Assembly: GCA_025617745.1 (NCBI GenBank)
Contig: CM046863.1
Location: forward strand, 11,662,273-11,726,272
DNA: 64,000 nt
DNA from: Heliocidaris erythrogramma
Taxonomy: Eukaryota; Echinodermata; Echinoidea; Camarodonta; Echinometridae
Direction: 5' to 3'
Shown one piece after another: positions 765 to 52,408 of the stretch (position 1 is its first letter; every line of letters starts with the position of its first letter). The notes under the pieces are model-generated. The model was not told where the DNA came from. It made no database searches and worked only from the letters and a program-made list of their open reading frames with translations. The position numbers and the translations under genes were made by a program.

Positions 765-1298
765 ATAAATCTGCCAGTGAACGTTGCCATTTTCAGTTGA
801 ATGTTTGGTAGCCTTTGATAATGTGATCACACCACATAGTGAAGTTGTTTTCCTTCCAAGATTTACTTTTATTGTGATCGGTTTACACTGTTTGTTTTAG
901 AATTTGCTTATGCATAGATTCACAAACCTTTCCTGAAGTATGCCTACATGTATACTGTTGAAAGTATAGTTTTACACTTCTGAGCTGATTTTTGTATTAT
1001 ATTTATTACAGTTTGATATACATGTATTCTAGATCCACAAACTTGCCTTGAAACATGCACATTTAGTGCTGAAATAATAGTTTTGCAATATGAAGTTGAT
1101 TTCTTCTCATACTAGTTGTATAGATTTATCAGAAGTTATATAATTTTTAAGAAACGTATGTATTATGCATACAGGGACATTTCTGTTAATTTTTTTTATA
1201 TGCCATTTGCTATTCCATATGGTATGCCTATATACTGTTGAAAGTATAGTTTTATACTACTGAGCTGACTTTTGTATATATTTTATTGTTGACAATAT

Positions 1299-1458
1299 TC
1301 AATTCAATTCAATTCTCATTTATTTCATTTTCAATTAAAAAGTACATTCAAAACAAATACAAAATATGTCATAATCGAAATTAGAAAATGAAATGGGGAA
1401 CTACATAAATAAAGCCCTTGGGCCTTGTACAAGCATAGTTCCCTACAAATATTGCGAA
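1299..1458 (-). mobile_element. Truncated retroelement 3' end with pentanucleotide tail
   Basis: This 160-bp block is absent from the mirror copy in the right arm, which shows it is an insertion. It begins with repeats of TTCAA (a GAATT-type tail on the minus strand) and is flanked by AATAT on both sides (1294-1298 and 1459-1463), a plausible target-site duplication. A similar GAATT-repeat tail ends a block at 43125. A 5'-truncated LINE or a SINE tail fits; the family is not identified. Confidence 0.6.
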
Positions 1459-1733
1459 AATATAGTTTCAATGTTCAGTTGATTTTTACTCTCACTTGGG
1501 TAGTTTTATTACAAGTTATACATTATTTAAAAGAAACTTTAAAAAGTATTACATACAGGAACACCTTTTCTACTTTTCTTTTTCCTTGTGATTTGCCATT
1601 TGCAATGGCACTGCATGTAACATATGAGGAAGTAAATGAAGACAGCATGAAAAAGTACTCTTCATTGTGTGTACGTGTAAGAAGTTTTGAAGTATTGTAA
1701 TCTACATTCCTTTTATTTCATTTTATTTTTGTA

Positions 1734-1903
1734 CAGTGGAGCATCATTAATGAACTTCTGGGGACCAAGGAAATAACCTCTTTATATCGAAACCTTGTTA
1801 TACCAGGGCTAAAAACAATAGAATACAAAAAAGTGGGACTTGCAAAAATACTGTCTTGTAATGAGTATGTTATACCATTGTTCTTTATAAGGAGGTTCCA
1901 CTG
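1734..1903. mobile_element. Small pogo/Tc1-like MITE relic
   Basis: The block starts CAGTGGAGCATC and ends GAGGTTCCACTG, imperfect inverted repeats, and is bordered by TA on both sides (1732-1733, 1904-1905). Internal text such as CTTGTTATACC resembles pogo/Tigger-type MITEs. A diverged copy is mirrored in the right arm near 4145-4325. A relative with the same layout lies at 12276-12448. Confidence 0.6.
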
Positions 1904-2218
1904 TACAAGGTATATATGTGGAGGAAGGCATATGGAGTGAGATAGGAGAAAAGAGAAACAGGAGGGAAATAGAGAGAAAGAGAGAACAGGGGAGAGAACA
2001 AGGGAGAAAAATTATCAAGGTCATGAGAGAAAGAGAGAGTGAAAGATAAGATAGAGAAACGGAACGAGCTAGAATCAGGGCTGTCAAGTAAAGTTTTCCT
2101 CCTCAAGTTTATCAATACAAAATTTAGATTAATCAGGCCCCCTTTTTATTTCTTATTTAAAAAATTTCTGTCAACTCTTTGCACGATGGCCATTCACGAA
2201 GTTAGTGTCCAGTTTTTA

Positions 2219-3124
2219 AAGGAGAATTAACCCCTGAGTACAAATTTACTTATATTGAAAGGTGTAATATATTCCTACTTATAGGCTTAAATCATTTTCT
2301 AATAAGATATTAGAAAAGGGTATAAATAAAGATATTCCAACACCCGGTATCGTCTCTTACTCATTTACATGGGGGCTGCCATTTTCTTGCTGATTTGGAT
2401 TTGTACATGAACCATTGAGAAATGTTCCAGTCAGGAAGATATTTTGAATCCAAGACCTAAATTGATTTTCTTCATTACCTAAAATCCCATATGTGACGAA
2501 AAATATAAAGTGGGTGTTTACATGATTTATAAAAATTAAATCTTTATAATGATACTCTTAAATTGTCTGGTTTTGCTTAACAAAAATCTATTTTCTTGGG
2601 TTTGCCAAACAGAGCAGAACATAATATATGCAGCATGCATTCTGACTTTTGAAGTCCCATTATCCGAAAGCAGGTGAATGCATAGTTTGCCGCTATAGAT
2701 GCTCAGGGAAGAAGCATCCATAAAATTTGAATTAATTTGCTCCGTCCATTGCGTCACAGTATCTAGAAAATAGATTTATATTAAGCGAATATCGATTTTC
2801 AACAGAAATATATAAGGAAATCTTCAGTTTAAGAATAAATTGACATATCTATTCTATATTTTTAATCTCAAATGGGTTTTCAATTTTGAAAAAGGCAATT
2901 GGGCATTTGGATTAAGAAAATCTTCTTGTACACATAAAAAAATGGCAGCCCCCATGTATTGCTAGCAGACGATACATATTGCTAGCAGATGATAAATTTT
3001 GCTCAGAAAATTTTGATTCGTATCGATCTCGTATATTTTGGCGCGAAGCCATATAGTCTAACAAGTAGGAATAAATAACACCTTTGAACACTATCGTCTT
3101 TATTGTTTGAGGTTAAGTCTCCTT
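2219..3124. mobile_element. MITE with long terminal inverted repeats and TA target
   Basis: The left end AAGGAGAATTAACCCC is mirrored by GGTTAAGTCTCCTT on the right, with TA on both sides (2217-2218, 3125-3126). The inverted similarity continues inward for about 190 bp: AAAGGTGT...ATTCCTACTT at the left matches AAGTAGGAAT...ACACCTTT at the right, and ATGGGGGCTGCCATTTT near 2370 is mirrored near 2940. It encodes nothing recognisable. TA flanks suggest a Tc1/mariner-type source. Confidence 0.7.
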
Positions 3125-3139
3125 TAAAGATCGATTCCC

Positions 3140-3300
3140 CTCTTTCGAAATCAGCCAGAGAAGAGAAAGAGGAGGGAGAGAAGAAGACAGAGAGAGAGAG
3201 AGAGAGCGAGAGAACAAGGGAGATAAATTATCAAGGTCATGAGAGAAAGAGAGAAAGAGAGAGTGAAAGATAAGATAGAGAAACGGAACGTAAGTGAGAA
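3140..3300 (+). repeat. Purine-rich direct repeat of 1920-2065
   Basis: The run from the GAGA-rich tract through ATTATCAAGGTCATGAGAG to AGATAGAGAAACGGAACG repeats the block at 1985-2065 in the same orientation. With the mirror copy at about 3985-4110 this makes three copies inside the palindrome region. Frames across it are low-complexity. Confidence 0.75.
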
Positions 3301-3950
3301 CAAAAGAGAAAGTGGAAGGGAATATTAGTGGGTGTAAGGCCATTCGCCAGGGTACAACATGTTATGATCCAAAATCCACAAAAGATACGAATCAAACAAC
3401 AAAAGATATTAACTTTGGATGACTCATGGTTTACTTTAAATATTTACCAACATCTGGTATGACATGATATAAAAGAATTAACAATTTTAGTTACAAATAC
3501 AGTACATGTACTTAAATGCGGTCCGTCGTCGGTGCCCGTGTGTTCCTATACTGTCCCGGCGAAGGGAAGTTCGGAGATTTCCGGAATCGTTCGGATAATT
3601 TGTAAATAGCCTGCGAGCGCAGGGGCGAGAGCTGAGCTTGCCAGCAATACGCTATGTCTCAGGTTCGGGATACTCCATGCTATGGTCTATGCCTATAGGC
3701 ACGAAAATAATAGCGGTTTTCGAACGAAATGGAGGTCGAGAGGAGAGACAGACAGACGAGATTACGTATCCACAGCGCGTACAGTTTGTGGATTGAACAC
3801 AAAGAAATAAATTTTGACGTGGGCAGCTTGTTTCCTCCAGGGAAAGTTTGAATAAAAAGTTCGTGTTGCATCTGCTTGAGCTGCACACCATTTGCAAATC
3901 GTACAGTGTACCTCCACGGGCTACGGTCGCCAGCGCCGGGTGCGCCCCGG
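3301..3950. other. Unassigned, partly GC-rich spacer of the large palindrome
   Basis: This spacer between the palindrome arms is richer in G+C from about 3520 to 3950 than its surroundings. Its longest frame (minus, 3652-4026) runs into the repeat arm, has no family signature and is not called as a gene. Confidence 0.4.
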
Positions 3951-4855
3951 TGGTGAACTTGAGGAGGAAAACTTTACTTGACAGCCCTGATTCTAGCTTG
4001 TTCCTTTTCTCTATCTTATCTTTCACTCTCTCTTTCTCTCATGACCTTGATAATTTTTCTCCCTTGTTCTCTCTCTCTCTCTATTTCCCTCCTGTTTTTC
4101 TTCTCTCCTATCTCACTCCATATGCCTTCCTCCACAAACCTGGTAAATTGGAACCTCCTTATAAAGAACAATGGTATAACAAACTCATTATAAGACAGTA
4201 TTTTTGCCAGTCCCACTTTTTTTTTGTATTCTATTGTTTTTTAGCCCTGGTATAACAAGGTTTCGATATAAAGAGGGAATTTCCTTGGTTCCAAGAAGTT
4301 CATTAATGATGCTAAACTGTACAAAAATAAAATGAAATAAAATGAATGTAGATTACAATACTTCAAAACTTCTGACAGTACACACAATGAAGAGTACTTT
4401 TTCTTGCTGTCTTCATTTACTTCCTTACATGTTACATGCAGTGCCATTGCAAATGGCAAATCACAAGGAAAAAGAAAAGTAAAAAAGGAGTTCCTGTATG
4501 TAATACTTTTAAGCTTCTTTAAAATAATACATGTATAACTTGTAATAAAACTACCCAAGTGAGAGTAAAAATCCACTGAACATTGAAACTATATTGTCAA
4601 CACTAAATAGACATGTTTCAAGGCAAGTTTGTATATCTAGAATACATAAAACTGTAATAAATATATACAAAAATCAGCTCAGTAGTATAAAACTATACTT
4701 TCAACAGTATAGGCATACCATATGGAATAGCAAATGGCATATAAAAAAGTACCAGAAATGTCCCTGTATGCATAATACATACGTTTCTTAAAAATTATAT
4801 AACTTCTGATAAATCTATACAAGTATGAGAAGAAATCAACATCATATTGCAAAAC
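3951..4855 (-). repeat. Right arm (inner part) of the long inverted repeat
   Basis: Reverse complement of about 1083-2112 of the left arm, without the 160-bp tail insertion. It ends at GCAAAAC (4855), exactly where the transposon at 4856-8060 begins; the arm resumes at 8061. Confidence 0.8.
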
Positions 4856-5639: not shown

Positions 5640-6920
5640 ACACACAATTAATATAAGGGAAACGCATTTTTTAATGTGTTATTCATTTAAAAATATTTCG
5701 GCAATAGTTCATATAAACTCCTGGGGGAAAACTACTGAACTCTATGGACCATATGGTTATTTGAAATAACCGCTATGTCTGACCACTCACAAATAGGCGA
5801 GGTTAAATAACCTCATACCGACTTATACATGTACAAGCTTATCTGAAGATAACCTTGTACTCCAGACTAGCTTTTATGGGTGAATAGGCTTCAACAGCTT
5901 TTGTGTGTATCAGCGTGCCTATTTCCAGTCTAGATCATTCATACACGAGATGGCCTATGGGTGGGCCCTTGCCTATGTGGGACTGTATCCAACATTCACT
6001 ATTGCAGCGGTCACAAACAGACAACAAAATTGCTCTAAGCAAGATTTGATTATCTTTAATTTGCTAGATTACCTGATTAATGGACTCATCAACTAGTCTT
6101 ACTGTGCCACAAATTTGGGGATTCAGAATTGAAAATAAAATTTTAAATAATTATTTTCCTCTCATGACTCATGATGTATGATACTATGAATTGTCTAGAC
6201 TGGAAAAAGGCCTGCTGATAGTACACACAAAAGCTATTGAAGCCTATTCACCTATTAAAAGCTAGTCTGGAGAGTGGAGTACTACAACTAGGTTATCTTC
6301 AGATAAGCTTGTACATGTATAAGTCGGTATGAGGTTATTTAACCTCGCCTATTTGTGAGTGGTCAGACATAGTGGTTATTTCAAATAACCATATGGTCCA
6401 TAGAGTTCAGTGGTTTTTCCCCAGGAGTTTATATGAACTATTGCCGAAATATTTTTAAATGAATAACAATTAGCACATTAAAAAATGCATTTTCCTTATA
6501 TTAATTGTATAAGCACTACATGTACAAGCTTATCTGAAGATAACCTTGTACTCCAGACTAGCTTTTACAGGTGAATAGGCTTCAATAGCTTTTGTGTGTA
6601 TCAGCAGGCCCTTTTCCAGGCTAGATCATTCACACAGGAGAGGAAAATAATAAATTTCACTTTCTGTTTCAAATTCAAGTCTGAATCCCTACATTTGTTG
6701 CAAAGACTAAAACTTAACATAACTTAAGTAAAACTAAGTAAGTAAGACTAAGACTAAGAGTTGAAGAGTCCCTGAATCAGGTAATATGGCAAAATTAAGA
6801 AAATTTAAATTTAAATCTTGTTTAGAACAATTTTGTTGTCTGCTTTTGACTGCTGCAACACTGAGTGAATGTTAGGCAAGGGCCTATGAGTGAACTATTA
6901 GCAGCAATGGCCTATGGCTA
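5640..6920. repeat. Multi-armed foldback inside the nested transposon
   Basis: Block 5644-5950 is mirrored by about 6190-6510 (shared ATCTGAAGATAACC, CATATGGTTATTTG and others). Part of it recurs in direct orientation at 6518-6645. The segment 5950-6180 is also loosely mirrored at 6640-6920. Successive inverted duplication explains this; no coding signal was seen. Confidence 0.7.
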
Positions 6921-8384: not shown

Positions 8385-8589
8385 GTCATATCAAGAGCTA
8401 ATTATTCTGAGCCATTAAAGGTCCCCTTTTATGGAATTACAAAGGAACTTCATTTAATATACTTTTCTACTGTGAATCCAGATCTGTCAATCATATTACC
8501 TGAATTCCATTCATTAATCTGTAACCTTGAAAATAAAAAAATAACTGGGAACGCCCCTAAAAATTTTGGAAAATCGGTCCAGCGATCGA

Positions 8590-8607
8590 TGACGTCATGT
8601 GACGTCA
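8590..8607. promoter_or_regulatory. Two CRE-type palindromes at the left transposon end
   Basis: TGACGTCA occurs at 8590-8597 and again at 8600-8607, about 150 bp upstream of the presumed start codon of the plus-strand gene. The full octamer is the consensus site of CREB/ATF bZIP factors. A promoter role is inferred from position and from the matching site at the other end. Confidence 0.5.
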
Positions 8608-8750
8608 CCCACAGAACGCTCGACTCACACAAGCTGGATCAGTATCGATGTGTGTGTGTTATGGCTATTGAGCTTCGTGTAGATCCCTTCGACTTCGTGC
8701 CATTTCAGCCCTTCATTTTAGCTTTTTAAAGACAAAATCCTACATCAACG

Positions 8751-9478
8751 ATGGCATCATCTTCTTCAGCCAGGACACTTATTCAGGATCAGATGTATCT
8801 GATTTGGAGCATCAAGTCCCAGAACAAATTGAAGAGGAATTAGGGGCCCGGCCGTATACTATGTTTGAGCCAGACATGTCGGATTCTGGGCAAGATTCTG
8901 ATGATGACAGAGACGTCCCTGATTTTAATAACGGAGAGGATATCGACGGGAGACACAATTGGTAATTATTTTTTGATAATAAATTACCGATTAAAGTTTA
9001 ATTCACGCATATCCACGTATTATGAATCTTGTTTACGCTTGCAAATTGCCCGAGAGAGGCTGAGCTGATACTTCGCTGATCGAGGCAGTGAGCTCGATGT
9101 GCGCTGGGCCGGGGTACACCCCGCGCTGTTTGGTTGTTCGCCTGCTGACCCTGCCTGGGCTTGCCCTTGGGCAGTTTTACTGGTGCATGGGGTGGTAGCG
9201 TTTGATTCTAGTAAATTCTAACATTGATATCCAGAAAACTCTTAGCTCTCCTGTTATCTTGCTTGTTTTCTTTGTGCTGCTACACTAAGTAAGTGTAGGT
9301 ACCGTTATAGTTGACAATAGATATGATCTTCTTCTTCTTCTTCTTCTTCTTCTCCACCCAGGGTTTCATCCAGTGTGTCTGGAGCGGTATGTGATGGAAA
9401 CTGCTTACTAGCTATCTGTATCGGCAGCAGTATGGCGGACAGGCAAGGCAGGATGCAACTGAAAATCAGTGAGTACAC
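8751..9478 (+). pseudogene. Broken gene for a P2X7 intracellular (ballast) domain-like protein
   Basis: Two exon-like pieces resemble the cysteine-rich C-terminal domain of P2X7, which occurs as stand-alone proteins in many invertebrates. Piece 1 (8751-8961) opens with an ATG and Ser-rich start, shifts frame once near 8772, then reads an acidic stretch ending in GARPYTMFEPD...GRHNW, and stops at a donor (TG|GTAATT). Piece 2 (about 9355-9478) reads HPGFHPVCLERYVMETAY, shifts frame near 9410, then reads YRQQYGGQARQDATENQ to a donor (CA|GTGAGT). RPYxFEP, HPGFxxVCL and YRQQYG match the family as I know it. The WCxCGxC segment expected between them was not found; a CTT microsatellite sits directly upstream of piece 2. 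The end of the domain is also missing. A relic; two frameshifts and missing exons rule out a working gene. Confidence 0.65.
9330..9353 (+). repeat. (CTT)n microsatellite
   Basis: About eight CTT units lie immediately before the second P2X7-like exon piece. They may double as a polypyrimidine tract or may have replaced part of the exon. Confidence 0.85.
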
Positions 9479-9569
9479 CATATTTTTTGTTTTAATCCTT
9501 ACTGCAGTATTCCTGTATTATATAAAGCAGTTTGGATGCAATATGCCAATTTGGCTCCTTATTTAATAT

Positions 9570-11595
9570 TACGATATTCTATAAAATAATGTTTTAGCCT
9601 TAATGTAAATAGAGGAAGATTATTCTATTTGCAGTGTACATGTATTTTCTTGTCCTATGTGCAGATTAACGTTTGTTTCCTCTTTCCCCATCACAACATT
9701 TTACACTGCGATGTTGACAACTAAATTATTAGCTAATCTTCTATTGTTTATTTGTGAAGTTCAAAGTAAAAGTTACCTCACTATCACCTACATCATAGAC
9801 TACACTGTGCATTGTTTTGAAGTTGTCTAATCATAGTTGTGCCGTGACAAGAATCCGTGCAGCATTTCCATCAGAACCATTGGCGGATCCAGGGGGCACA
9901 GCTGACCCGGTCCCCCCCCCCCCCCCCTTTGGAAGAGAAGTATGATTTTTTTTGTTGCTTGTCAGGGAATTATGGAGGGGAAACTAGACCCCAATAACCC
10001 CTTATTGAGCGATTTTTGAAGGTTTAGCAAATTTCTTTTTTTGCCCCCCCCCCCCCCCCCCTCACTGAGCGACTTTTCGAGAAGCTGACGAGACCAGAAA
10101 AATACGGGTCTACCTTTTGACAAACTTTCATTTTTGTGCCCCCTCTTTTACTCAATCCTGGATCAGAACAGAACAGGGGCTTTGAAGAGGCGTAGACCTA
10201 CATACAATTTTGCTGTTTTTCCCCCACCTTGTCAAGATCTATGTTTACAGAAAAATATATGTTTTACTTCCACCTTATTACTGAGATTTTTATTACTGTT
10301 CTAAGATAGATTTTCAAAGATATTTTTTTTAAATTGGAAATATTCCCTGCATTTTACCTCTTTAGGGTATTTTCTTTTCAAAGTTTACTGTATGTATATA
10401 TATTTTTTTAACCTTTGCAAAAAAATCAAAAGGGAGGGCAGCTCTGTGGAACTTTAATGTAAGCTATGCAACCATTATTCTCATACTTTTTTTTACTGGG
10501 GCTTGGATATGACATGCACAAATCTCAACATTAAGCAAAGGTGATAGTAGATTTTAACATTTTAAAAATATTTATGCATCAGAACTGTTGTTCCATCAGT
10601 GTAAACATTTACACAGTCATTATTTGAAAGAAAAAAATATTCAGTACTAATGACTGGCAAACATCTTTTATTTAATCAGGTCATTCATGTGATCATCATT
10701 ATTGTTGCTTCACATCATATTTCTTTTCAAACTGACATTATTTTTTCTACAGATTTTTTTTTTCTTCTTTCATTTGATTTATTGTATTTGTTATTATGTA
10801 CTGATATATGTTGGTCTAGTTGTTAACTTGATAATGCTTAGATAGCATATACATTTATCATGTATATAACTGTTTATAAGAAATGTTAAAAATGCTAATA
10901 CGTCATTGTTCAGTCTATCTTTTCATGATATTTAATTCCTATACATGGATATCAGTTTTCCTGAAAGTTGGGTTTATTACATGAGGGTGTGCTACACTGT
11001 GACAATGTGGTAAAAATGTTATTGCTGTTTTTGCTTCAAGTATCAGAGGAAAAGAGTAGTCTAGGAGGCTTATTTTGAATTGAATATTCATTTTCACTGT
11101 CAGAAATAAAATTGGAATTGGGTAACTGAGTTCACATCTAAGTATTTGCCCAGAGCATTTTTTGTAATGGATGTTGTAAAGATGCATGTACCTCAGTCAA
11201 GAATGATAACTCTGTTGTTAATGGCATATGAGGTCTGTTATTTTTTATGGCATTTGTTGTTTAATTTGTTAATGAAACACACTTTGGAAGCTAATCAGTT
11301 TTGTTTGTTTTGTTTTGTTATGTTTTTTTTTGGGGGGGGGGGGGGGGGGGGGGGGCATTCTATTGAATGTTTGATGTTCAATTGTAAGACAACCATTTCC
11401 TGGATACATCTATATCTACATTTCTCCAGAAGTAATAATATATTTCAAATCAATTGAATATTTTTGTCATCTCTGGAAGAGCTCAAACACATTTACTATG
11501 CAAGGCTTGTCGTGAATGAAACTAACAATTGAAAAGAAAGGTGTGAGTGCGTGAATGAGATCAAAACCAACAATTGGCAGAATGGAAAAAGAAAA
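9570..11595. other. Non-coding interior of the Kolobok-like element
   Basis: Mostly AT-rich DNA with long C runs (about 9917-9936 and 10047-10062) next to the phrase GGCGGATCCAGGGGGCACAG, and a T/G homopolymer near 11325-11356. A SINE body piece lies at 10410-10495. No further P2X7-like exon and no transposase could be read. Confidence 0.5.
10410..10495 (+). mobile_element. Body fragment of the tRNA-Arg SINE family
   Basis: AACCTTTGCAAAAAAATC through GGCAGCTCTGTGGAAC to GCAACCATTATTCTC matches the body of the SINE copies at 52.2-53.0 kb. The tRNA head is absent. Confidence 0.65.
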
Positions 11596-12108
11596 AAAAA
11601 GAGATAAAGTTGAGAGGAGATGTGTGTAATTGGAGAATATTGGGCAAAAAGAAGGAGAAAGGGAGACAGAAAGCACAAGAGAAGAAATAGTGAAAAAGAG
11701 AGGGAATCACTGGGGGAAAAAGGGAGAGATAAAAAAGTTGAGGGAAGATGTGTGAAAGCGGAGAATTTTGGCATAAAGAGGGAGAAATGGAGGGAAAGCA
11801 CAAGGGAAGAAATAGAGAGAGAGGGAATCATTGGGGGAAAAAGGGAGAGATAAAAAAGTTGAGGGAAGATGTGTGAAAGCGGAGAATTTTGGGCATAAAG
11901 GTTGAGAATTTTGGGCATAAAGAGGGAGAAATGGAGGGAAAGCACAAGGGGAGAAATAGAGAGAGAGGGAATCATTGGGGGAAAAAAGAGATAAAAAGTT
12001 GAGGGAAGATGTGTGTAAGTGGAGAATTTTGGGCATAAAGAGGGAGAAAGGGAGGGAAAGCACAAGAGAAGAAAAGGTGAAAGAGAGAGAGGGAATCATT
12101 GGAAAACA
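11596..12108. repeat. Purine-rich minisatellite, about four units of ~120 bp
   Basis: Units repeat GAAGATGTGTG...GGAGAATTTTGGG...AAAGCACAAG...GAGGGAATCATTGGGGG. Spacing is about 120 bp, with one unit lengthened by an internal ~24-bp duplication near 11890-11915. The long open frames on both strands here (for example minus 11496-12065) are products of the repeat and are not genes. Confidence 0.85.
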
Positions 12109-12275
12109 GATTTTCTGTCAAATGAACTACATGTATAAGGTAGAGAAGTAGGAATCAACCTGTAACTGTGATGTATACCCCTTTTTCCTGCCGAAGGAGG
12201 GGGGGGTTGTAGGTTGAAAATTGCCCGTTACACTTTCACTACATTCAGGGTGGTAACAAAAATCAATATATTATA

Positions 12276-12448
12276 CGGTGGAAACTTAGTATAACGAGGT
12301 CCTTGGGACTATTAAAATTACCTGGTTAAATCCAGAATCTCGTTACATCAGTTTAAAAAAAAAGAATATAAAAAGTTGAGACCAAAATATTGCCTTGTTA
12401 TATCAGGAATATTGTTGTATCAGACCTCTTTATACTGAGTTTCCACTC
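12276..12448. mobile_element. Small pogo/Tc1-like MITE
   Basis: The left end CGGTGGAAACTTAGTATAAC is mirrored by TATACTGAGTTTCCACTC, with TA on both sides (12274-12275, 12449-12450). 173 bp, no coding content. It has the same style as the MITE at 1734-1903. Confidence 0.7.
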
Positions 12449-12599
12449 TACCATGATAAACATTTTTATAACACTCTTTATGGAGAAAGATCTTTTTCTT
12501 CATCAAGAACAAAAAAAAAAAAAATTTAATAGTAAAGACCAATTGAGAGAGGTGCTTGTGAGGTAAAGCTCAGAGTCGCCAAATTTCATATTATTGGTG

Positions 12600-12845
12600 A
12601 AACTTGTTTCAGGGACGGCCTCTTCTTGATGCCATACGCAGCCCCGTGCTATCGACGAAGTCCTCCGCACAAAAGTGCTCGGAGCACACAACACTGTGCT
12701 CACTCGGCCCCTTCCAATGGGCGCGAGTTAATTTTACTTTTGCGGTCCATTTCCTTCTTATATTTGGGTCTTTAGGGAATAAATGTAGACTGACACCCTC
12801 CTTTGTGGTGTTACTGCAACCTGCAACAACGCAGCGTTGCGGCAT
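12600..12845 (-). pseudogene. THAP-domain protein gene, frameshifted
   Basis: On the minus strand a start codon near 12845 opens MPQRCVVAGCSN, followed by LFPKDPNIRRKW and VVCSEHF. This is the C2CH zinc module of a THAP domain: Cys-x4-Cys at residues 5 and 10, then CSEH downstream, with the usual FPKDP and W. Near 12630 the frame changes: the open frame ends RRGRP-stop, while another frame continues GIKKRPSLKQ, the expected end of the domain; the AVPTIF-like close is lost. THAP domains bind DNA and are found in P-type and, as I recall, Kolobok-type elements as well as host proteins. It starts about 320 bp inside the right transposon end and faces inward, so it most likely belongs to the transposon. 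Confidence 0.75.
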
Positions 12846-12951
12846 ACTTCGCTTTAGAGGTGGTTTTCGAGGTGGTATACACAACAACAAGTTAGTTTGC
12901 ACATGTAATACATAGGCAATATTGTAAACAAGCATCGGCAATGTCGGTTTG

Positions 12952-12959
12952 TGACGTCA
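12952..12959. promoter_or_regulatory. CRE-type palindrome at the right transposon end
   Basis: TGACGTCA within GTGACGTCACACGTCA, about 110 bp upstream of the THAP start codon on the minus strand. It mirrors the pair at 8590-8607, which suggests duplicated promoters in the two transposon ends. Confidence 0.5.
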
Positions 12960-13162
12960 CACGTCAATCATGCTCGCGGAACGAGAATTCGGGGTTTAAA
13001 AGGGGGCGGAGCTTAGCAGACTGTTTTGGACATGAATACCTGGGGGAAATATTATTTTAAAAATATCTTGATACGTATTTATTGCAAACGGATGTGATTT
13101 TTCAATTTAGATGAGATGCATGTACAAAATACCAAGAATTATAATTTCATAACAGGGGACCT

Positions 13163-13817
13163 TTAAGCTTCTCCGATTCTTTTGAGCTATGCAAACTGCT
13201 ATTTTCAGGGGCGGCTCTACGGGGGGAGGGGGCGGTTGCCCCCTATGATTTTTCAAGTGCCCAAAGAGAGAGATATAGAGAGAGAGAGAGAGCGAGAGAG
13301 GTGGAAGAAAAACGAAAAAAGGAGAAGAAGAAAGAAGAAAGAAGAAAGAAGAGTATGCAATTATTATTATTATGATTATTATCATTATTATTATTATTAT
13401 TATTTGTTCATCTAAAACTTAAATTAATTCGCTCGTTGGCAGGGGGCGCAATGCCCCCCCCCCCCCCCCCCCCATTCTCACCTTTCCAAGCACCCCACAA
13501 GTCTCCTGCTACCCACAGAAATGCCGCTTTTTATAGTCTTTCACTGCCTTCTTTTTCTCTTTTTAAGGCAGTGGCGTATCTAGGTATTATGACGCCCTGG
13601 GCAAACAGTGAATTTGCACCCCCCCCCCCCCCTCCCCGAGTCAAATTATGTTATGCGAGGAAGCCAAGCGACCGAGCAGCAATTTTTTAAAATTAATTTT
13701 TTTTTTTTTACCCTTCCACAAGGTTCCTTTATTCATCATCAACATGACAATTTTTAAAAAAGATCTTAAATATGTTTTTTTCCATGATTTATCAGCGTAT
13801 AAGCGCATACCATTATA
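13163..13817. other. Low-complexity DNA with poly(C) runs and microsatellites
   Basis: GAGA- and GAA-rich tracts (13265-13350), an ATT microsatellite (13360-13402) and long C runs (about 13453-13473 and 13619-13632) follow the phrases GGGGCGGCTCTACGGGG and CAGTGGCGTATCTAGG. These look like ends of short degenerate elements. Frames here are low-complexity. Confidence 0.5.
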
Positions 13818-15482
13818 CACTGTTGGTCATAAAGGTGGAATATTTTTTTTCACCAAATTTTCACAGCGTAATTATTACAACATGATTTGAATATGGCATT
13901 TATGGTGCATGATAACCACTTTACTTTATTATTCTGCCTTTTACACACGTTTGACAGTGATATTTTACAAGTTTATGTCCTAAGCGATGGATGTCATGAG
14001 CATAGAACAACAATGACGACAATATACAGTAAATTTAAGGATCATGAGATACAGTATTTATTTTCAATCTCTCTCAGTTTTCCAGATGACTTCTTTTTTG
14101 TGATTTCATGGACAAATTTGCATCAAACTTGAGTCATTGTTCTTACTCAGTCACTAGTATCGGGTATGTCCACCCCTGGCACGAACCAGCGCATGCAGAC
14201 GTCGTGGCATGCTGTCCACTAACTTGTTGATGACGTCAACAGGCATAGCGTCCCATTCTTCCCTCAGAGCATCTGCCAACTCCTGCAGATTTTGAGGAAT
14301 GACCTCTCTGTCGTTGATGGCTCGGCCTAGGGCATCCCATGCATGCTCTATGGGGTTCATATCCGGCGAACAAGCTGGCCATGGCAACTGTACGACGCCC
14401 TCTGCCTCCAGGAATTCCCTTACTGCAGCGGCCCTGTGCGGTCTAGCGTTGTCATCCTGCAGTCGGAAATTGTGCCCATACACTCGTCTTGCATATGGAA
14501 GACAGTGGAACTCCAAGATATCCCTGTAGGCGGCGGCGTTGACGTTTCCGTCCGGAACCACCAGTGGCGTTTTCCCTCCATAATGGATGCCGGCCCATAT
14601 CATCACTGAGCCGCCTCCGCCTTGAGTCGTCTCGTGGATACATTCATCGCGAAGGTTTTCCCCGGCTAATCGACGAACTCGTTGTCTCCCATCCTTTCGG
14701 TCAAGGATGAACCGGCTCTCGTCCGTGAAGACCACATGTTGCCAATGTCCTGGATGAAGCCTTCTGTGCTCCCTAGCCCAAAGAAGACGAGCTACTCTGT
14801 GGCGAACAGACAGGCGTGGACATTTGGTCAACCGTCGTGCTCGGTAACCATGTTGGAGCAATCTGCGATTAACGGTTGACCGGGAAACGTTGATCCCATG
14901 ATATCTCCTCCACAAGCGACGAAGACGGCTCGTGGGCAATTTCCGGTTTCTGCGGCTGAAATTCAACAGTTGGCGATCATCTCTTCTTGTGGTCAATCTG
15001 GGACGTCCTGGAGATTTCCGTGGCCGCACATTCCCCGCCTCACGTTGACGTTTCAGGATCTTAGAGACTGCACTCTGTGATATCCCTAGGACTTCTGCGA
15101 TATCAGTCTGCTTGTAGCCCTCCTGTCGCAGTGCTACCACTCTCTCGCGTGTTGCTGTTGCCGTTGGACCAGGCATAGTCCAGGGAACGTCTCTACCGAT
15201 TTTTATTTCAAACGGTACAAGGAACTCGAAAAAATGCAACCTTCTTATACACAGTGCTAAATCAGGGAAAGGGACAGAATATCATATGCATAGGCTTTTA
15301 TAGTCTATCAAAAGAATTTATTACGTAATCCAAATTTCTCATGTTATAATGTCACCTGTGTAATGGGGAAACATTATGTAATCACTCAATTACCATTTTG
15401 TCTACGCGTAGCCTTTCAAATACCAACAAAACTGTCGATTTTTATTCAAAAATATTTTATTCCACCTTTATGACCAACAGTG
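13818..15482 (-). mobile_element. Complete Tc1-type transposon
   Basis: Ends CACTGTTGGTCATAAAGGTG and its mirror at 15463-15482 are identical over about 25-28 bp, with TA on each side (13816-13817, 15483-15484). The interior holds one intact transposase gene. Length 1665 bp is normal for Tc1 elements. Perfect ends, a clean target duplication and an unbroken gene indicate a recent insertion. Confidence 0.93.
14154..15176 (-). CDS. Tc1/mariner transposase, intact
   Basis: Transposase that binds the element's inverted repeats and performs cut-and-paste transposition into TA. The start at 15176 gives MPGPTATATRE and 340 aa, the usual Tc1 length; the frame stays open to an upstream ATG at 15239 (361 aa). 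In the 340-aa numbering a helix-turn-helix region (KQTDIAEVLGISQSAVSK) spans about 22-39, the GRPR linker is at 57-60, and a second HTH follows. Catalytic residues are Asp152 (FTDESRF), Asp242 (QDDNARPH) and Glu277 (SPDMNPIEHAW), with 34 residues between the last two: the DD34E signature of Tc1. No stop or frameshift interrupts it. Nothing shows whether it is expressed. Confidence 0.93.
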   Translation of the reverse strand: MPGPTATATRERVVALRQEGYKQTDIAEVLGISQSAVSKILKRQREAGNVRPRKSPGRPRLTTRRDDRQLLNFSRRNRKLPTSRLRRLWRRYHGINVSRSTVNRRLLQHGYRARRLTKCPRLSVRHRVARLLWAREHRRLHPGHWQHVVFTDESRFILDRKDGRQRVRRLAGENLRDECIHETTQGGGGSVMIWAGIHYGGKTPLVVPDGNVNAAAYRDILEFHCLPYARRVYGHNFRLQDDNARPHRAAAVREFLEAEGVVQLPWPACSPDMNPIEHAWDALGRAINDREVIPQNLQELADALREEWDAMPVDVINKLVDSMPRRLHALVRARGGHTRY

Positions 15483-15774: not shown

Positions 15775-16015
15775 GACGAAAAGGGAATAGCCCAACAGGC
15801 AATTAGCCTTAGTGATAATTAGACAAAGTGATGTTTAGACAAATTGGCATTTCGACCAACTGACAATTAGACTAAATGGAAAATGGACCAAATGAAAGTT
15901 AGACCAACTGCATATTAGACCATATAAATGCCATGTAGACCAGCTAGTTTTAGACTGACTGGGAATTAGACAAACTGACATTAGAGGAACTGGTAGTAGA
16001 CCAAGTGACAACAAA
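15775..16015 (+). repeat. Degenerate minisatellite, ~18-22 bp units
   Basis: Variants of AATTAGACCAACTGACA recur about a dozen times with changing spacing (TTAGACAAATTGGCAT, GACCAACTGACAATTAGAC and others). Confidence 0.75.
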
Positions 16016-16034
16016 ATAAAGATAACTTCAAACT

Positions 16035-17060
16035 CGCAAACATTCGGCCTAAACTTAAAGGAAATTCATTGAATAAAGACGATCTTAAGAATTATCGTCC
16101 AATTGCCAATCTGAAATTCTTTGCAAAGATCCTTGAAAAATTTGCAGCATCCCAGTTGCAAGATCATCTTCGGGAAAATAACCTATATGCTAAATTTCAG
16201 TCAGGTTATCGTCAGTTTTATGGTGTTGAAACAGCTCTTCTTAGAGTTACGAATGACGTGCTAATAGCATTGGATAAAGGTGAAGAAGCAATTCTAGTAT
16301 TGCTAGATTTTTCAGCAGCTTTTGACACCATACGACATGACATTCTCCTGACACGACTAAAAAACAAATTAGGATTAAGAGGCCAGGTCTTGAAGTGGTT
16401 TGAATCCTATCTGTTAGACCGAAGTCATCGTGTGGTCATTGATGGTGAACAATCATCATCTCACCTCATTAAACAGGGAGTCCCGCAAGGATCTGTACTT
16501 GGTCCGATTCTATTTACATTATATACTGCTCCACTTGAATCACTCATAGATCAGTATAATGTACAAAAAATGTTCTATGCTGATGATACACAACTGTATG
16601 TTTCATTTGAAAAGTCAAGTAGTTTTGATCCAGCCGACGAAATCTTGCCTTGCATTCAGGCTATTAAGGAATGGTCCCAAGTCAATTGCCTCAAACTTAA
16701 CAGTAGCAAAACAGAATTTCTCCATATATCCTCACGTTTTCGTGAGTCACAACCTATCAATGCACTAGATATCAATGGAGCGTTAGTTCAAGCAAGCCAA
16801 TCTTGTAGGAATTTGGGAGTGATCTTTGATTCTCGAATGACATTTGAGAACTTTATATTGCGCAAATGTCGTGCTGCTTCATACGCGCTTTACAGAATTG
16901 GTAAAATACGCCATTATTTGGACAAACGTACAACTGAAAAACTGGTACATGCGTTCGTCTTATGTCACATTGACTTCTGCAATAGCCTCATGTTTGGATT
17001 ACCACAACAAAAAATTAGAAAATTACAGACTCTTCAAAATGCTCAAAATCTCTTTATAAT
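16035..17060 (+). pseudogene. Truncated CR1/L2-like LINE reverse transcriptase
   Basis: Reverse transcriptase of an APE-type non-LTR retrotransposon. The open frame begins at RT motif 1 (LKNYRPIANLKFFAKILEK, residues 6-24 from 16069) and shows DFSAAFDTIRHDIL (80-93, first catalytic Asp), QGVPQGSVLGPILF (136-149) and the YADD box (170-173). The thumb follows, with NSSKTEFL and NLGVIF. The DFSAAFD and YADDTQLY spellings fit the CR1/L2/jockey group; the exact clade is uncertain. The endonuclease is missing (5' truncation near 16035). The 3' end is also missing: the frame continues to 17088, but homology stops at about LQNAQN near 17046, where an oppositely oriented LINE begins. No lesion lies inside the retained RT. 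Confidence 0.85.
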
Positions 17061-19314
17061 TCATCTCTTGAGCAACGTCAGGATCTAATGAAAAATAAAT
17101 ACCTAAATGTTTTACAATGCCAACTGCCTTTCCAAAAGGATAAAAAGTTGCAACGCCAACAGATGGCCCCAGAGGCAAAATAAATGTTTTATTTCCATTA
17201 ATCTTAAGTCCGGATATTTTCCTAAAGCTCTCTAAAATTACCTCCTATCTACAAATTGAGTTTATATCGCGTGCAAATATTGTCATATCATCTGCATAAA
17301 GGATCTGCTTTATTTCACCAACGCGAATACCCTTTACCAAGTTATCTTTTCGAATGCAATGAGTTAGACATTCGATACATAAGATGAATAAAATAAGGAG
17401 ACAGCGGATCTCCTTGTCTTAAACCCCGTTCTACTTTGAAATAACCGGTTGATTTCCCTCCGTTGAAAACACAACTTTGAGCTTTAGTATATAGTATTTT
17501 AACCCATTTACTAAACATTGGTCCAAACCCGAATTAATTAAGCACCTTTTGAAGAAAAGTATGCGAAATTGAATCGAAGGCTTTTTCAAAGTCTATTGCC
17601 AATAGATATCCTGGTTTATTAAAATCATATCATTGATTAGTCTTATTGCTTCACCAATGTTTCTATCATTTAAATAACCAACTTGATCGACTGACACAAT
17701 ACTACTCAAACTCGTTTTTAATCTTTTAGAAAGTATCTTAGTAAGGATCTTGTAATCGACATTGAGTAAGGAGATAGGCCTATAATTATTAATACATTTT
17801 GGGACGTTACCATCTTTATGTACAAGTGTAATAATTGCTTGTTTTTGAGAAGGAGATAATTCTTTAAATTTTATATTATCATTAAAAGCATTTACGACTA
17901 AGTCACCGACTACCTGCCAGAATGTAATGTAAAATTCTACATTCAATCCATCATTCCCTGGGGATTTATTCAACCGCATTTCTTTTAGAATATCAATACC
18001 ATCTCCTTGTGGTTAATTTTTCCCTCACAGTGATTTCTCTGATTTTCGGTTAATTTGGGTAAGCTGTTGGGGAAAAAGTTAATGTTCTCACATAATCCTA
18101 CTTCTGAATCGGCATACAATGCTGAATAAAAGTTTCTGATTTCCTGCAAAATATCACTTTCATCATCAATTATATTTTCATTCACCTTTAGCTCTTTAAT
18201 AACACTTTTTTTCCCATTGGAAGCTATTAATTGCTTAAAATATGCCGTTTCTTTCCAGATTGTCAATCCAGCCATTGTCTCTAATATTTGTTGGTAGTTA
18301 TAGTTCTTCCTCTAATTTTAAAATTTCTTGCTCTAAACTGGCAATTTTTTCCTTTCTTTCCTTGGCTTTTTTCTTGGAGTATTTTGTTGTAAAACTGCGT
18401 ATTTCCATTTTCATATAATCCCATAATATTCTGCTATCTGTAATCTCTTCAGATAACCTAAGTTTCAAACGTGTTATTTCTTCTTTCATACTTTTAACAT
18501 AACCTTCATCATTACACAAACTGTTATTAAACTTCCAATAACCCGCCTTTATTGCGGGATTAGTAATAGAATTCAATCTAATAGTCAGTTCTATTGCTGA
18601 GTGATCAGGTGAAATGGAAGGTACTATTTTACAGTTTAACACTGTCTCTCCTAAAATTTCGGAAATAACCCAATAATCCAATTTACTTTGCATAGAAGGA
18701 TTTTCTTGGTGATACGTAAATTGTTTCTTAGTGGCATTTCTTAATCGCCATAATTATGTCTATTGCATTATAGTCAATTAAAACGTTTTAAAACTTATTA
18801 CTGAGCTTAGACTGCTTTTTAAAATATTATTTCCCATGTAATCTAGATGTACATCTCTAACCATATTAAAGTCCCCTCCTATAATAAAAGGCTTATTTTT
18901 AAATACATCTTTTCCTAGGATATGTATAATAATTGTTCCACCTCCTTGCTTCCAACTGGAAAATAAACATTTCATAATATTACCTCTTGATTTTGCAGAA
19001 ACCCAACTGTGAAAATGTATCTACCTTCTGTATCAGTAATTGTATGTTCTAATTTAATATTTACTCCCCTGTCAAATAATATCATAACCCCTTTACCGTG
19101 GTTTGTACCGTGGCTATATATACAGTTCCCCTCCCACATCGAGTTCCAATTATTAAGTATATCTTGTGTACTAAATGTTTCCTGTAGAAAAATAATATTC
19201 CCTCCTTTTTCTTTGCACCATCTAAAAATGCTCCGTCTTTTATTTTTCTCTCTAACACCCTTAACATTTAAAGATATAAAATTGCATACAGAAGATTTAG
19301 TCTTATTTATCATA
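17061..19314 (-). pseudogene. Tx1/L1-like LINE, endonuclease plus partial RT, decayed
   Basis: Read from 19313 leftward. Piece one (18972-19313) is the start of an APE endonuclease: SLNVKGVREKNKRRSIFRW, FLQETFSTQ, SHGTNHGKGVMILFD. Piece two (18778-18975) has IIGGDFNMV. Then follow LDYWVISEIL and SPDHSAIEL (18298-18693), a Lys/Glu-rich linker, SFYSALYA (17985-18275) and RT blocks NKSPGNDGLNVEFYITFW and NYRPISLLNVDYKILTKIL (17593-17979). Further left, in shifted frames, come DFEKAFDSISHTFL, RQGDPLSPYF and ILYADDMTIFA, to about 17100. At least five frame breaks. The organisation matches the plus-strand copy at 46.8-51.2 kb. The region beyond the RT is absent, so this copy keeps its 5' part and lacks its 3' part, the reverse of ordinary LINE truncation. 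Confidence 0.85.
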
Positions 19315-29601: not shown

Positions 29602-31721
29602 GTGATAAAATCGGAATGCTCCTAAATCAATATTAAAGCAAAAAAGAATCTGGTCACTCTTTATTGTTCAAACTTACCATATAACCTGTCAATACGATAT
29701 ATATCAAATATATATAAAGTGTCCACTTTCTCTTTTGGTGAATGTATTATGTGTGTATATATATATATATATATATACGTGGTAATTTGAGGGAAATTAA
29801 TTTTACACAGATTGCTCGTATATGTATTGTTTTTTCTCATTTATTGGCAACAAAGCACATTATTTTGGCATTTTATATTTCATATGAAATGTTATACAAA
29901 TCTGTAGATCTATAGCTTATTTTCCTAAGTGATATTGATGCTTGTACACTACAAGTGATGTTGTTGCGTGTATTCAAAAATTCAAAATGGCCGTCGACCT
30001 GTCTATAGTGGCCACCGGTCTATAGCGGCCACTTTTACCGTTTCCCTAGGTGGCAACTATAGACAGGTTTTACCGTATATACGTGTTTTGTACACATATA
30101 ATTTTTCATGGAATACAAAGGCATAGTCATATATGACCTAAAAGCTGTTTCCCCCTCATTATTAATTTTCCTAGCTGTATCAAACTTATTTTCGTACATT
30201 TATATCATGTATCAGTGACTCTAATAGCAAAGTTCTCAAATACAATCATCAAAGTGTATTACTCATGATCATTGATTACTAATATTTATCAGACATATTA
30301 CTGCCACGTGATCCGGGACATATACGAGCCACAGATTCGAATGACTCGCATCCTGCAGGCTTACCAACATTTGGCCGAAGCTTGCGACAACAAGAATTCC
30401 TTTTACCCAATGACGCCTGTCTGGCTAACAATGGATCATTTGGAGCTGTTCCAAAGTGTGTCCTTGACTTTCAGATGCGGTAGGTTTTTTTAAATTCAAT
30501 ATTAATGTACATGCAGGTATAGATCTTAACTGTTTCCATATATTCAGACACTGATTTCTCTTTTTTTAAATTTTTATCGTAAGATGTAACGTTCTCTCCA
30601 ACAATGTCCAAACTGTTTAAAAAAAAAAAAAAAAATTTCTTACACCTCTATGACAATGAGGTCAACCCCCCATGTGGCCCATGGATCAAATTTGTCAGAA
30701 GGGGTATTGGTGTGCATTACAGAAATAAAACGTATAAAAGGTAGTTTTAGCACAACCTTAATGAATGATTTGGGTCATAGTCATATTTTTTCTTATATCA
30801 TTTCGTATGAAGATTGATGGAAGAAGCAGAAAAGGACCCAGAAATATGGTTTCGTCTAAAGATCAAACAGTTGTACAGAGAAGCGGTTCAACACGTTGCT
30901 GAATTTGTTGGTTCTAGTTACGATAACATTGTCCTTATTGAAAATGTTACGACAGGTAATTTGCGATTCATTCATTTGACTTTATTAACTTGGCTAAACT
31001 CTCCTAAGGGTAATCTCACTGTCTCCTGTTCTTGTGTTCACCTAGTTCTTTTTCGCCTTTAAACGGCACCTAACGTCACTGAAAGAACCAAACCGAATTT
31101 TCTCATATTGCATTGGGTAACATTTGGAAGAAATCGCAACTGCACGCCAAACCATTCTGTCCACTTCTGAATTTAAGACCAGCGATATATTTCATATTAT
31201 GTTGGTGATGCCAGTGAATTCAATACATTTATTTTGATCATATGTGTGAGCATATATATATATATATATATATATTAACAAATAATGATGGAACGGAATG
31301 AAGCAGGTCACTCGGTGTATTTACAATTTTTTTCGGCTCCTGGCCTTCTTCATGTTTATTTGCTAAATCAAACAGAATGAAACAAATACTACTACTAATA
31401 ATAAACAACTTAACAAAACCAATGACAAGACAACAGAATTATCATGAAGCTGGCAACATAAATCAACAAAAATACATGTTTCATTCTGTTTGCTTTAGCA
31501 AAATTGTAAATACACCGAGTGACCTGCTTCATTCCGTTCCATCATTATCTGTTCATATATATATATATATATAGATATGATCAAAATAAATATTTTGAAT
31601 TCACTGGCATCACCACCATAATATGAAATATATCGCTGGTCTTAAATTCAGCTGTGGACAGAATGGTTTGGCGTGCAGTTGCGATTTCTTCATTTCTTCA
31701 TTACGTTTCATCATATTTGTT

Positions 31722-31752: not shown

Positions 31753-33698
31753 TTTTGAATAAAGCCTGAAAAAATCTTAGCGCCCCGACCGGGAATCGAA
31801 CCGGGGCCACTGGCTTAAAGTACCGATGCTCTACCACTGAGCTACCGAGACACGGCCGGACGATACAATCGGTACAATCATTTCAGGCTTAAGGCATTTC
31901 AGGTTTATAGTCACTTGTTTTTACAAAACTATACAGGGTGATGGATTTCACCGCTTCTATGTGGCCGTCACTTAAATTGGAAGAGGCCTGCTATGCGGTC
32001 AAGATGAATAGTGGATGCCTCCCCTGTATAATTTGGTAAAACAAGTGACTATAAGCCTGAAATGATTGTACCGTCCGGCCGTGTCTCGGTAGCTCAGTGG
32101 TAGAGCATTGATACGTTAAACCAGTGGCCCGGGTTCGATTCCCGGTCGGGCGCCAAGATTTTTTCAGGCTTTATTCAAAAAATATTATGATTATAAATAA
32201 TCTCCTCTTTATAATTACAATAATATATATATATACACTAAAGGAAAAAAGAAACTTATAAAAGTTCAAGAGATCACCAAATTAAATTCTCTGCATGGAA
32301 ATGTACCAAATTTGGATATAATGTTGATTCAATGCATGGCTTTAAATGACAGTCAATAACAAAAAGTTTTCTTCAATGCCACAAAAGAAATGTGCACTGA
32401 AACAAAGGACTCTCTAATCCCAAAGTCACAAAGATAAACTGCAGTCTTGTACACCATATGCATGTCAATGAATGAAACAAAAGAATTTCAAAAGGGATTT
32501 GCAAGTTCATATCCAAACAGATTAATAGCCAGTATGTCCACCTCTAGCTTGCTGGCAAGCTGTACACCGTCTTCGCATGCTTCCGATCAGATTCGCGATG
32601 GTAGCCTGGGGAACATTGTTCCATTCCTCTTGCAGTGCTGCAATGAGCGTCTCCCTATTGATGGGTTGATTGTCACGCCTTGACACACGTCGACCAAGCT
32701 CTTCCCAGAGATGTTCAATTGGGGAAAGGTCTGGTGAACGGGCGAACCATGGCAGAACATCAATATCCTCTTGCTCGAGGGGTGCAAATCCCTTTTGAAA
32801 TTCTTTTGTTTCATTCATTGACATGCATATGGTGTACAAGACTGCAGTTTATCTTTGTGACTTTGGGATTAGAGAGTCCTTTGTTTCAGTGCACATTTCT
32901 TTTGTGGCATTGAAGAAAACTTTTTGTTATTGACTGTCATTTAAAGCCATGCATTGAATCAACATTATATCCAAATTTGGTACATTTCCATGCAGAGAAT
33001 TTAATTTGGTGATCTCTTGAACTTTTATAAGTTTCTTTTTTCCTTTAGTGTATATTATGTAGATGGTAAAAAATAAATGAAGACACTCCTTAAACAAGTC
33101 AAAAATACGAATTTTCGCCCTTAGGGCTTTATCAAGTATAATCTATTTTCAATGAAAAATAGTAATTTTATCCCAAACAAAGATGCGTCAAATATACACA
33201 TGCCCATACAAAAGGAAAAAATGCGTTAAGGCTCAAGATATATACATGTACGTCACAATGAATGAATGCGTCACAAAGAAAACTGGATACAGAGAAAGAA
33301 AGAACAATTCCCCCCTCCCTCTCTTCCCCCTCTCTCCTTCTCTGTGTTCTGCTCCATTGATGTCATGTATACCCCCGTCCTCTTTCTTCTTCTCTCTTTT
33401 TTTTTCTTTATCACGCATTTATACTCGTCTTCTTTCCTGCGCGCTTGTTCTTACATTCTCTGTTTCCAGTTTCATTTGTGAAGTATTCATTCATTGTGAC
33501 GTACATGTAAGTATCTTGCACTCTAGCGCATTTTATGTATGCGTATGTGTATATTTGGCGCATTTTTGTTTTGGATAAAATTATCATGTTTCAATCAAAA
33601 TAAGTCATATTTGATAAAGCCCTAAAGGGCGAAAATTCGTAATTTTAACTTGTTTACGGAGTCTTTTCATTTATGGTGTGCAGTTTACATATATACGG

Positions 33699-49500: not shown

Positions 49501-52163
49501 CTTAAAAATGACAAGTTTCAAGCTGTTTGTCAAGACACAACGTATTATGTGGTTAAAGCGCTTATTATATGGAGAAAAGAATGCAGGATGGAAATTGTAT
49601 TTTGATCACTGTCTTAGATCAGTTGGTGGAAGATTTGTTTTTAAATGTGATTTTGAGCCGTCCAATTTGAGATTGGTTTGTCCACCATTTTATTTGGAAA
49701 TTCTGAAAGCTTGGGAAAATATGGAAAAATGCAGGAATTTTGAAAGTGATGTTATAAATCCAATAATATCTAATAATAGAAATATACGTATAGGAAATAA
49801 AACTTCTTTTTATAGTGATTTATATGATATTGGCATATGCTAGCTAACAGATATTTACGATAAGGGACATATGAAGCCTGTGGAATACTTTCAAAGCCTG
49901 GGTATTATAATTACTGCTATACAAATGAATAATTACTGCTATACCAATGAACTGGAAGGATATTGAAGCCGTAGACAGATTTAAGCAAGTTGATTTAACA
50001 AATTTTAATATAGTCTTGAATATTTTTGAGCAGAAATCTAATTTTCAATGCATAAAATCTAGGAGAATTTATGAACATTTTGTCAAAGAGTTGCAAGACA
50101 CTTATAGTTTACAGATAAGGGATGGTCACAGCAACTTTGATTTTACGGATAAGGAATTGAGGGAACTATTTGTCAGACCGAGAAGCTCAACACTGATTTG
50201 GAAATGCAGAGAATTTCAATTTATGCTAGTACACGGGGTCGTATATACCAAAGAACAGCTTATGAAATTTGGTTTTGGAGCTGATAACATATGCTCCTTT
50301 TGTCAATTTGAGCCAGAGACATATTCGCATTTATTTTTGCAGGGTGAAAAGGTTAAAGAGATATGGAAATTTGTGATTGAACATTTTGATATAGCTGAAT
50401 TGAAAAATATGAATTGGCAAGAAATATTTTTGGGAATCACGGGTAATTCTGATAGATCTAAGTGTGTAAATAGTCTGATAATTATGTTGAAATATACTAT
50501 TTTTAAATCTAGGTCAGAAAATAACTTGCCAACCAGAGAAAAGATAATAAAAATTATTTCGGAATTTATAGAGGATGAAAAAGCTCCAGCGTCAAAAGCA
50601 GGTACACTGCACTTGCATTTACGAAAATGGGAACATAATTATAAACCTGGATTGATTGACCTTGGGGTACTTTCTATTATTTTCAGTTCATTCCCGGTTT
50701 CCCATTCATTCTATGCTCGATTATTTCCTCCAGTTATGGGTATATGTCGTTGCTTATTGCTCATTCAAATATTCAAGTCAGGAGTGTTGGACAGGCGGGG
50801 GAACCGGAGACGATATTATGAATAGGTGGATGCGTGTGGGTGCTTTTGTGTTTGTGTGTGCTGTGTGGGTGTGTGTGTATGTGCTGTGATATGGGTTAAG
50901 TAGGGGGATGAAAGGGGGAGGGGAGATGGAAGTAAAGTGGAATAAGGAGTCTATAGTAAGAATGTATTATGTTATAAAGTTTGATATTCATTGTTTGAGG
51001 TAAGGAGGGGGTGGGGGTTCGTCTTTTCTTTTAATGATTACATTTCATTCAATGATATTTTTGGTATATGCCTTGTTTCAATGATTTTATTGTTTGTAAT
51101 TTGTTATATTCATTCAAGACGAATATTCCTTTATAAAAATATAGAAATGAATAAAAACTATTGAAAAACAAAAAAAGTGTACGTGTGTGTGTGGGTGTGT
51201 GTGTGTAGCGCCATGAGCGTCATGCTTGACGTATGGAGGGGGGCATTTTTTTTCCTTCGTCTTGTTTTAATGATTACATTTCATTCAATGATATTTTTAT
51301 TGAAAATGCCTTGTTTCAATGATGTTATCGATCGTAATTTGTTTTATCCATTCAAAACGAATGTTATGTTATATATAGAAATAAATAAAGATTACTGAAA
51401 AACAAAGAAAGTATGTATGTGTATACTGTAAAAACACAAACATTCACCAGATATGATGTTCTAGTTTAGGTCTGATTCTAATAAAGGAGATTCTCAGCTT
51501 CACAACCGGATGTTCCTCAACCAGTGAAAGAAAAGAAAAGGATGTCCAGTTTAGAAAAAAATAATGATGTATCTAGTCTATTTCAAGCACTCTGACCCAC
51601 GAGGTTTGTGCAATGGGACAAAAGGAGTAATTGAACTCAATATAAGTTTTTGAGTAGAAAATGATGAAATTGTTGTAAAACTTGGCACACCGATTAAGCA
51701 CATCCTCCTCTTTATCTTGCCCATATACCAATGGAACCGTTTCCTCTATTTCAAAGTTATCATGGTTAAGGGAGATCAAAATGAGACAAGTAGGCAGGGT
51801 TGTAAAGGACAACTAAACTAACTCCAGATCAGACCATCATACAAGTATATCTACAAATATGTGTCCAAAATACCACTTTTAGCTTGTTTGGTGATTCCAA
51901 CTTTTGAAATTACATACATGAAAATACGCTCTTTTAGAACAAAATGCAAAAATTTGACCATGCTAAACAAATATGCCTTTATTGTGCTCTAACTGAAAAT
52001 CACCGTGCAAATATATATATCTATATATATCTAAATGGTACATTACAAGGACATGCAACAATGCGGTTTATTCCGTCATAATAGCGCCCTTTACATTAGA
52101 TGGAAATTTCGTACATTAAGCGGACATTTGAACAGAGAAATAGGACAATAAATGTCCTATATA

Positions 52164-52194: not shown

Positions 52195-52408
52195 GCATAT
52201 ATATAATTATATGTATATAATTGTAAGGAAATAACATATATAACAGCTTTGAGCTTTGCTTAAGGCATTGGCGTTCTAAGCCAACGACCCGGGTTTGATT
52301 CCCGGCGGAGACATTTTTTCAACCTTTGCAAAAATTACCAAAAAGGAGGACAGCTCTGGGGAACTTTGATTTAAGTTACGCAACCATTATTCTCTCATTT
52401 CCTTTCAC

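Follow-up and report, generated by a model that had tools for sequence, protein, structure and literature searches.

We analysed a 64,000-nucleotide stretch of the genome of the echinoid Heliocidaris erythrogramma (assembly GCA_025617745.1, contig CM046863.1, positions 11,662,273 to 11,726,272 of the forward strand), hereafter the window, which carries near its left end an insertion bounded by inverted repeats and TTAA. Two genes face each other within it: at the left end a broken gene related to the intracellular (ballast) domain that forms the tail of P2X7, and at the right end a gene with a THAP domain (Table 1). A preliminary description, made from the letters of the window without database searches, had marked out these features, called the element Kolobok-like and suggested that the P2X7-tail-like domain spread as cargo of a THAP-bearing transposon. 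Comparison with further copies in the same genome establishes that this is a complete insertion of a DNA transposon, and a worn-down copy of a common one.

Table 1. Features of the transposon insertion, in window coordinates.
Feature	Position	Strand	Remarks
Whole insertion with TTAA on each side	8415..13166	.	element proper 8419-13162
TTAA and left terminal inverted repeat	8415..8442	+	5'-AGGTCCCC
Ballast exon 1 (PYxFEP part)	8751..8963	+	reading frame 8672-8965 compared with the open exon 1 start of L041; frame broken near start
Ballast exon 2, second half only (HPGF to ENQ)	9355..9469	+	frame broken; zinc-binding first half, present in L041, gone
Ballast exon 3 remnant (SCAVTRIRAAFPSE)	9835..9876	+	fuller exon 3 in other copies
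Purine-rich repeats inside element	11593..12102	.	copy number varies among copies
THAP open reading frame from its Met, 78 amino acids	12612..12845	-	Pfam THAP match at about 12660-12833
Right terminal inverted repeat and TTAA	13139..13166	-	

The terminal arms span 28 nucleotides including the TTAA and are 89% complementary, and TTAAAGGTCCCC occurs exactly twice in the window, once at each end of the element. Anchored at TTAA, the two ends pair at 21 of 24 bases, compared with at most 19 of 24 for the best pair in 100 windows simulated with a first-order Markov model. Ten further TTAA-anchored pairs within the real window reach 21 to 24 of 24; such repeats are thus frequent in this stretch, and the pairing score alone is no proof; the proof of insertion comes from the other copies. 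Many copies are present in the source genome (1.06 Gb, 26 contigs). A 34-base pattern of the left end, allowing up to three mismatches, was found at 424 places genome-wide and its reversed control at none. The first 301 bases of the element gave 471 first-look candidates, of which the best 40 were scored; 20 further copies were fetched from these 40 and are thereby biased to young ones, making 21 rows with the window copy.

TTAA flanks both ends in 15 of the 21 rows. It is absent at the place taken as the right end in five (L009, L018, L020, L026 and L027), and the left end of L024 is cut off in the fetched stretch. Homology halts at the element ends in the 20 fetched copies and the flanks are unlike between rows, L010 and L011 being the sole pair with common flanks. 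Mean divergence from the majority base is 0.80% in the left part (21 rows) and 1.13% in the right part (18 rows, leaving out L018, L020 and L024). The element begins with AG and ends with CT in the window copy and in the rows with both ends, and the AG end recurs in the longer copies L041 and L042 and at the left end of a second family described below (group B). The borders, inverted repeats and Kolobok-like TTAA and 5'-AG ends of the preliminary description thus held to the exact base.

The left gene has three exons, and in the window copy the zinc-binding stretch and most of exon 3 have been lost and the frames are broken. Its pieces follow in order on the plus strand as RPYTMFEP (from 8850), HPGFHPVCL (9355), YRQQYG (9419) and SCAVTRIRAAFPSE. 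In Pfam these pieces, exon 1 included, had no match to the P2X7 intracellular domain, giving one chance match to a different family (E 0.15), and when joined they had no match in PDB; the identity of the window gene as a ballast gene therefore rests on fuller copies. All 20 fetched copies have the exons inside the element. Exon 2 carries the same short insertion in 17 of the 21 rows (not in L009, L019, L023 and L027), and in alignment to the window element none of the 20 fetched copies has, at the place of the zinc-binding stretch, an insertion large enough to hold it; the youngest copies therefore multiplied with an already dead ballast gene. That most fetched copies share the same break indicates that the gene was not needed in cis during their multiplication. 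Viral contigs searched with the THAP and ballast pieces yielded no relatives.

Fuller copies were found by a protein search of the genome with the exon 2 and exon 3 pieces, which gave 1063 first-look candidates, the best 150 of which were scored. Ten small loci were drawn from the scored rows and longer stretches were read at five such places. The zinc half of exon 2 is kept in two of the ten small loci (L034 and L035). In one fuller copy, L041, a single frame break interrupts exon 1, exons 2 and 3 are open, a THAP open reading frame (ORF) lies on the minus strand and TTAA stands at both ends. L042 also has TTAA ends, but its zinc stretch and THAP are both cut, and L039/L040, L043 and L044 are partial copies; no copy of the window family with every ballast exon open was found among those fetched. 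The spliced exons of L041 matched the Pfam family P2RX7_C at 60.6 bits (cut-off 23.5, E 2.6e-16), and the joined exons matched human P2X7 in PDB (E 1.7e-05). The preliminary reading of the left gene as a broken P2X7-tail-like gene was therefore sound, by way of L041, and this fuller copy does contain both genes. That description had named two outcomes that would speak against it, namely copies of the repeat family lacking the P2X7-like exons and a host gene crossing the borders; the copies contain the exons, and the exons stay within the borders.

The right gene likewise proved to be what had been proposed, its THAP domain matching PF05485 on the minus strand (E 4.5e-14). In 15 of 21 rows the ORF has no interruption between its Met and the end of the domain; it is open without the Met in L009 and is broken, cut or missing in L017, L018, L020, L021 and L024. 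Across 18 rows, changes relative to the majority comprise 7 silent, 18 replacement and 0 stop changes; these fit the expectation without selection (27% silent, 70% replacement, 3% stop), and selection on the THAP ORF after insertion was rejected. A genome search with THAP gave 3595 first-look candidates, the best 150 of which were scored. For at least 32 of these 150, a scored ballast row lies no more than 10 kb away, in all 32 cases in convergent orientation, compared with a mean of 0.15 under random placement; the count is a lower bound because the THAP and ballast lists each hold the best 150 only. At C10:29958246-29962564, five ballast exon 2 rows stand on the same strand about 1.05 kb apart as a tandem array, with a convergent THAP row downstream at C10:29965732.

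Ballast genes also occur in this genome outside the window family. A search with the zinc exon yielded 610 first-look candidates, and the best 150, which were scored, contain groups at 59-67% identity, several of them with near-identical dispersed copies. Group B, represented by L046, has three ballast exons open by reading frame with putative splicing and is 66% identical to the window family (family A) in exon 2. In three copies, each with flanks of its own, homology starts at TTAA|AGAGGGGATCGC, so that a further P2X7-tail gene stands behind its own TTAA|AG end. The group B end pattern, allowing up to three mismatches, was found at 55 places and its reversed control at 21. Among the eight ends with no or one mismatch, seven have a ballast exon on the same strand about 0.4-1.6 kb downstream, the exception being C11:21605988. 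Three further copies match the 1.7 kb past L046 over its full length and a fourth matches it piecewise, indicating that the group B element is at least 6.4 kb long. A candidate right end at L046:5663 was rejected, as homology continues in both other copies. TTAAAGAGGGGGTCTCATGG, two mismatches off the group B end, occurs 21 times, never beside a scored zinc-exon ballast row; these sites possibly belong to a related transposon family without a ballast gene. Group C, represented by L045, recurs at five further places with at least 2 kb in common, and its left end is masked by the insertion of a different repeat into L045. Immediately upstream of a group C ballast exon lies a repeat of 2.35 kb (L045:1-2353) that has dozens of copies.

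Selection has maintained the ballast protein along the lineages that separate these families. Seven cysteines are invariant across L041, L046, L045 and human P2X7, and the RH and AYR motifs are present in human P2X7 too. Differences at the three codon positions number 32/22/71 between L041 and L046, 28/22/73 between L041 and L045 and 35/33/76 between L046 and L045, with a nonsynonymous divergence (dN) of 0.22-0.31 and saturated synonymous divergence (dS). Such between-family constraint alone cannot separate a transposon gene from captured host genes.

Several properties of the element point to its classification. Passages of Kojima and Bao 2022 (PMC9587614) describe Kolobok elements by TTAA duplications and 5'-RR ends, the latter distinguishing them from piggyBac, and report that the Kol0 group encodes a transposase together with KolX, a protein of ballast fold with seven conserved cysteines that resembles residues 476-595 of human P2X7. 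THAP domains are usual in Kolobok transposases, according to passages of PMC6004289. The TTAA target, RR/YY termini and THAP domain expected of Kolobok elements, including non-autonomous ones, are all present in the window element, and the ballast fold and seven cysteines of KolX are found in L041, the gene of the window copy being broken with its zinc part gone. The window element is thus very probably a young, non-autonomous and decayed member of a Kolobok0-like family whose left gene is KolX-like. Its inverted repeats would have been recognised by a transposase from an autonomous relative, which would have moved the element into TTAA by cut and paste, and the THAP ORF may be the DNA-binding start of a lost transposase. 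The ballast gene multiplied inside the transposon, the youngest copies spreading with the gene already broken. Fuller relatives would most likely provide the ballast protein in trans, as an accessory factor; that it is a working transposition regulator, perhaps sensing guanine nucleotide or zinc and acting in trans from intact families, is a more speculative and rather doubtful proposal.

Certain observations weigh against this placement. First, ORF reading, with no transposase-profile search, found no DDE transposase core with H2CH zinc finger in the window element, which makes the family look non-autonomous. Second, the ORFs listed for L039-L046 and L051 show no DDE core either, and an autonomous partner did not turn up; assignment to Kolobok0 therefore rests on the ends, the THAP domain and the ballast gene rather than on a transposase tree. 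Third, group B is without a THAP or transposase ORF in the part read (L046 and L051), which stops short of the right end. Lastly, few THAP rows, the at least 32 of the best 150 given above, have a scored ballast partner.

The strongest competing explanation is that a host ballast gene was taken up by THAP transposons, once or repeatedly, and spread as a passenger. The ballast gene was not found to have a transposase next to it and, like a host gene, contains introns, and separate capture of host genes that were themselves under constraint would also produce between-family constraint; stand-alone ballast genes are moreover reported in animals, with a gene neighbourhood common to some invertebrates, in passages of PMC7016195. 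Against capture, families A and B, for all their divergence in exon 2, share one orientation of the gene, whose Met lies about 330 bases (A) and about 370 bases (B) inside the left end, behind different TTAA|AG ends, and KolX is reported in Kolobok0 elements of vertebrates, annelids, cnidarians and sponges (passages of PMC9587614). We consider capture improbable. The preliminary description was right that the domain multiplied inside a THAP-bearing transposon; "cargo" is probably the wrong word, since KolX is described in the same passages as Kolobok0's own second protein.

An element of piggyBac type would also account for the TTAA target, and a few piggyBac families are named in those passages as encoding a KolX-like C-terminal part. 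The window element has AG ends, of the RR type that separates Kolobok from piggyBac, as well as a THAP domain, and fuller copies have all seven cysteines, most of which the piggyBac proteins are reported to lack, making this assignment very unlikely. That the exons belong to an ordinary host gene lying around and across the repeat is refuted by the copies, all 20 of which contain them inside borders where homology ends and beyond which, save in one pair, the flanks differ, leaving this reading next to no probability.

The probable placement of the window element in a Kolobok0-like family would bear on the history of P2X7. The central point has been published before: in the passages concerned, Kojima and Bao 2022 (PMC9587614) report KolX as encoded by Kolobok0 transposons and propose that a P2X4-like gene fused with KolX to give P2X7, so that KolX became the P2X7 tail. 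What is new is the window family with its ends and decay path and, in the same genome, a second family with its own left end. Together they give independent, copy-level support to the published view of the ballast domain as belonging to transposons: the TTAA borders are sharp, the two families differ in their ends, and constraint between families is seen at the protein level. Because open and broken ballast families co-occur in one genome, the original job of the putative ancestor of the P2X7 tail could be tested there, and a transposition function for KolX, if found, would show what the tail did before joining a channel.

Further probable mobile sequences lie elsewhere in the window. A long open Tc1/mariner-like transposase frame of 375 amino acids (14154-15281, minus strand; Pfam DDE_3 and HTH_Tnp_Tc3_2) stands about 1 kb to the right of the element. 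TTAA-anchored inverted repeats pairing at 24 of 24 bases (1147-4791, 5687-6458, 31173-31645, 32282-33004 and 52260-52661) are probably further inverted-repeat elements. Reading frames judged by eye to resemble pieces of reverse transcriptases of long interspersed nuclear elements lie at 16009-17088, 38397-39474 and 46912-50825. Rfam matched three tRNAs, at 31781-31851 (minus), 32083-32152 (plus) and 52608-52679 (minus), which may be tRNA-derived repeats since two lie close to the 31-33 kb inverted repeats and the third adjoins the one at 52 kb.

Three known systems invite comparison. Kolobok0, as described for Kolobok-1_XT in passages of PMC9587614, has the same TTAA target, 5'-RR ends and a seven-cysteine ballast-fold protein as its second gene; the window family differs in that no DDE transposase was found and the window ballast gene is broken, a comparison made by description rather than by sequence alignment. 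The Xenopus Kolobok elements and T2-MITEs resemble the window family in their TTAA target, AG ends, THAP domain and high-copy non-autonomous relatives, whereas their transposase genes are intact and a ballast gene is unmentioned in the relevant passages of PMC6004289. Stand-alone ballast (ZCD) genes and the P2X7 tail share with the present family a short protein with the zinc cysteines, and one tick protein with a THAP-type domain ("TAHP") and ballast is listed in passages of PMC7016195. There such genes number fewer than 10 per species and a term search finds transposons unmentioned, in contrast to the 1063 first-look candidates (150 scored) for one exon here, suggesting that counts of invertebrate "P2X7-tail" genes may be swollen by transposon copies.

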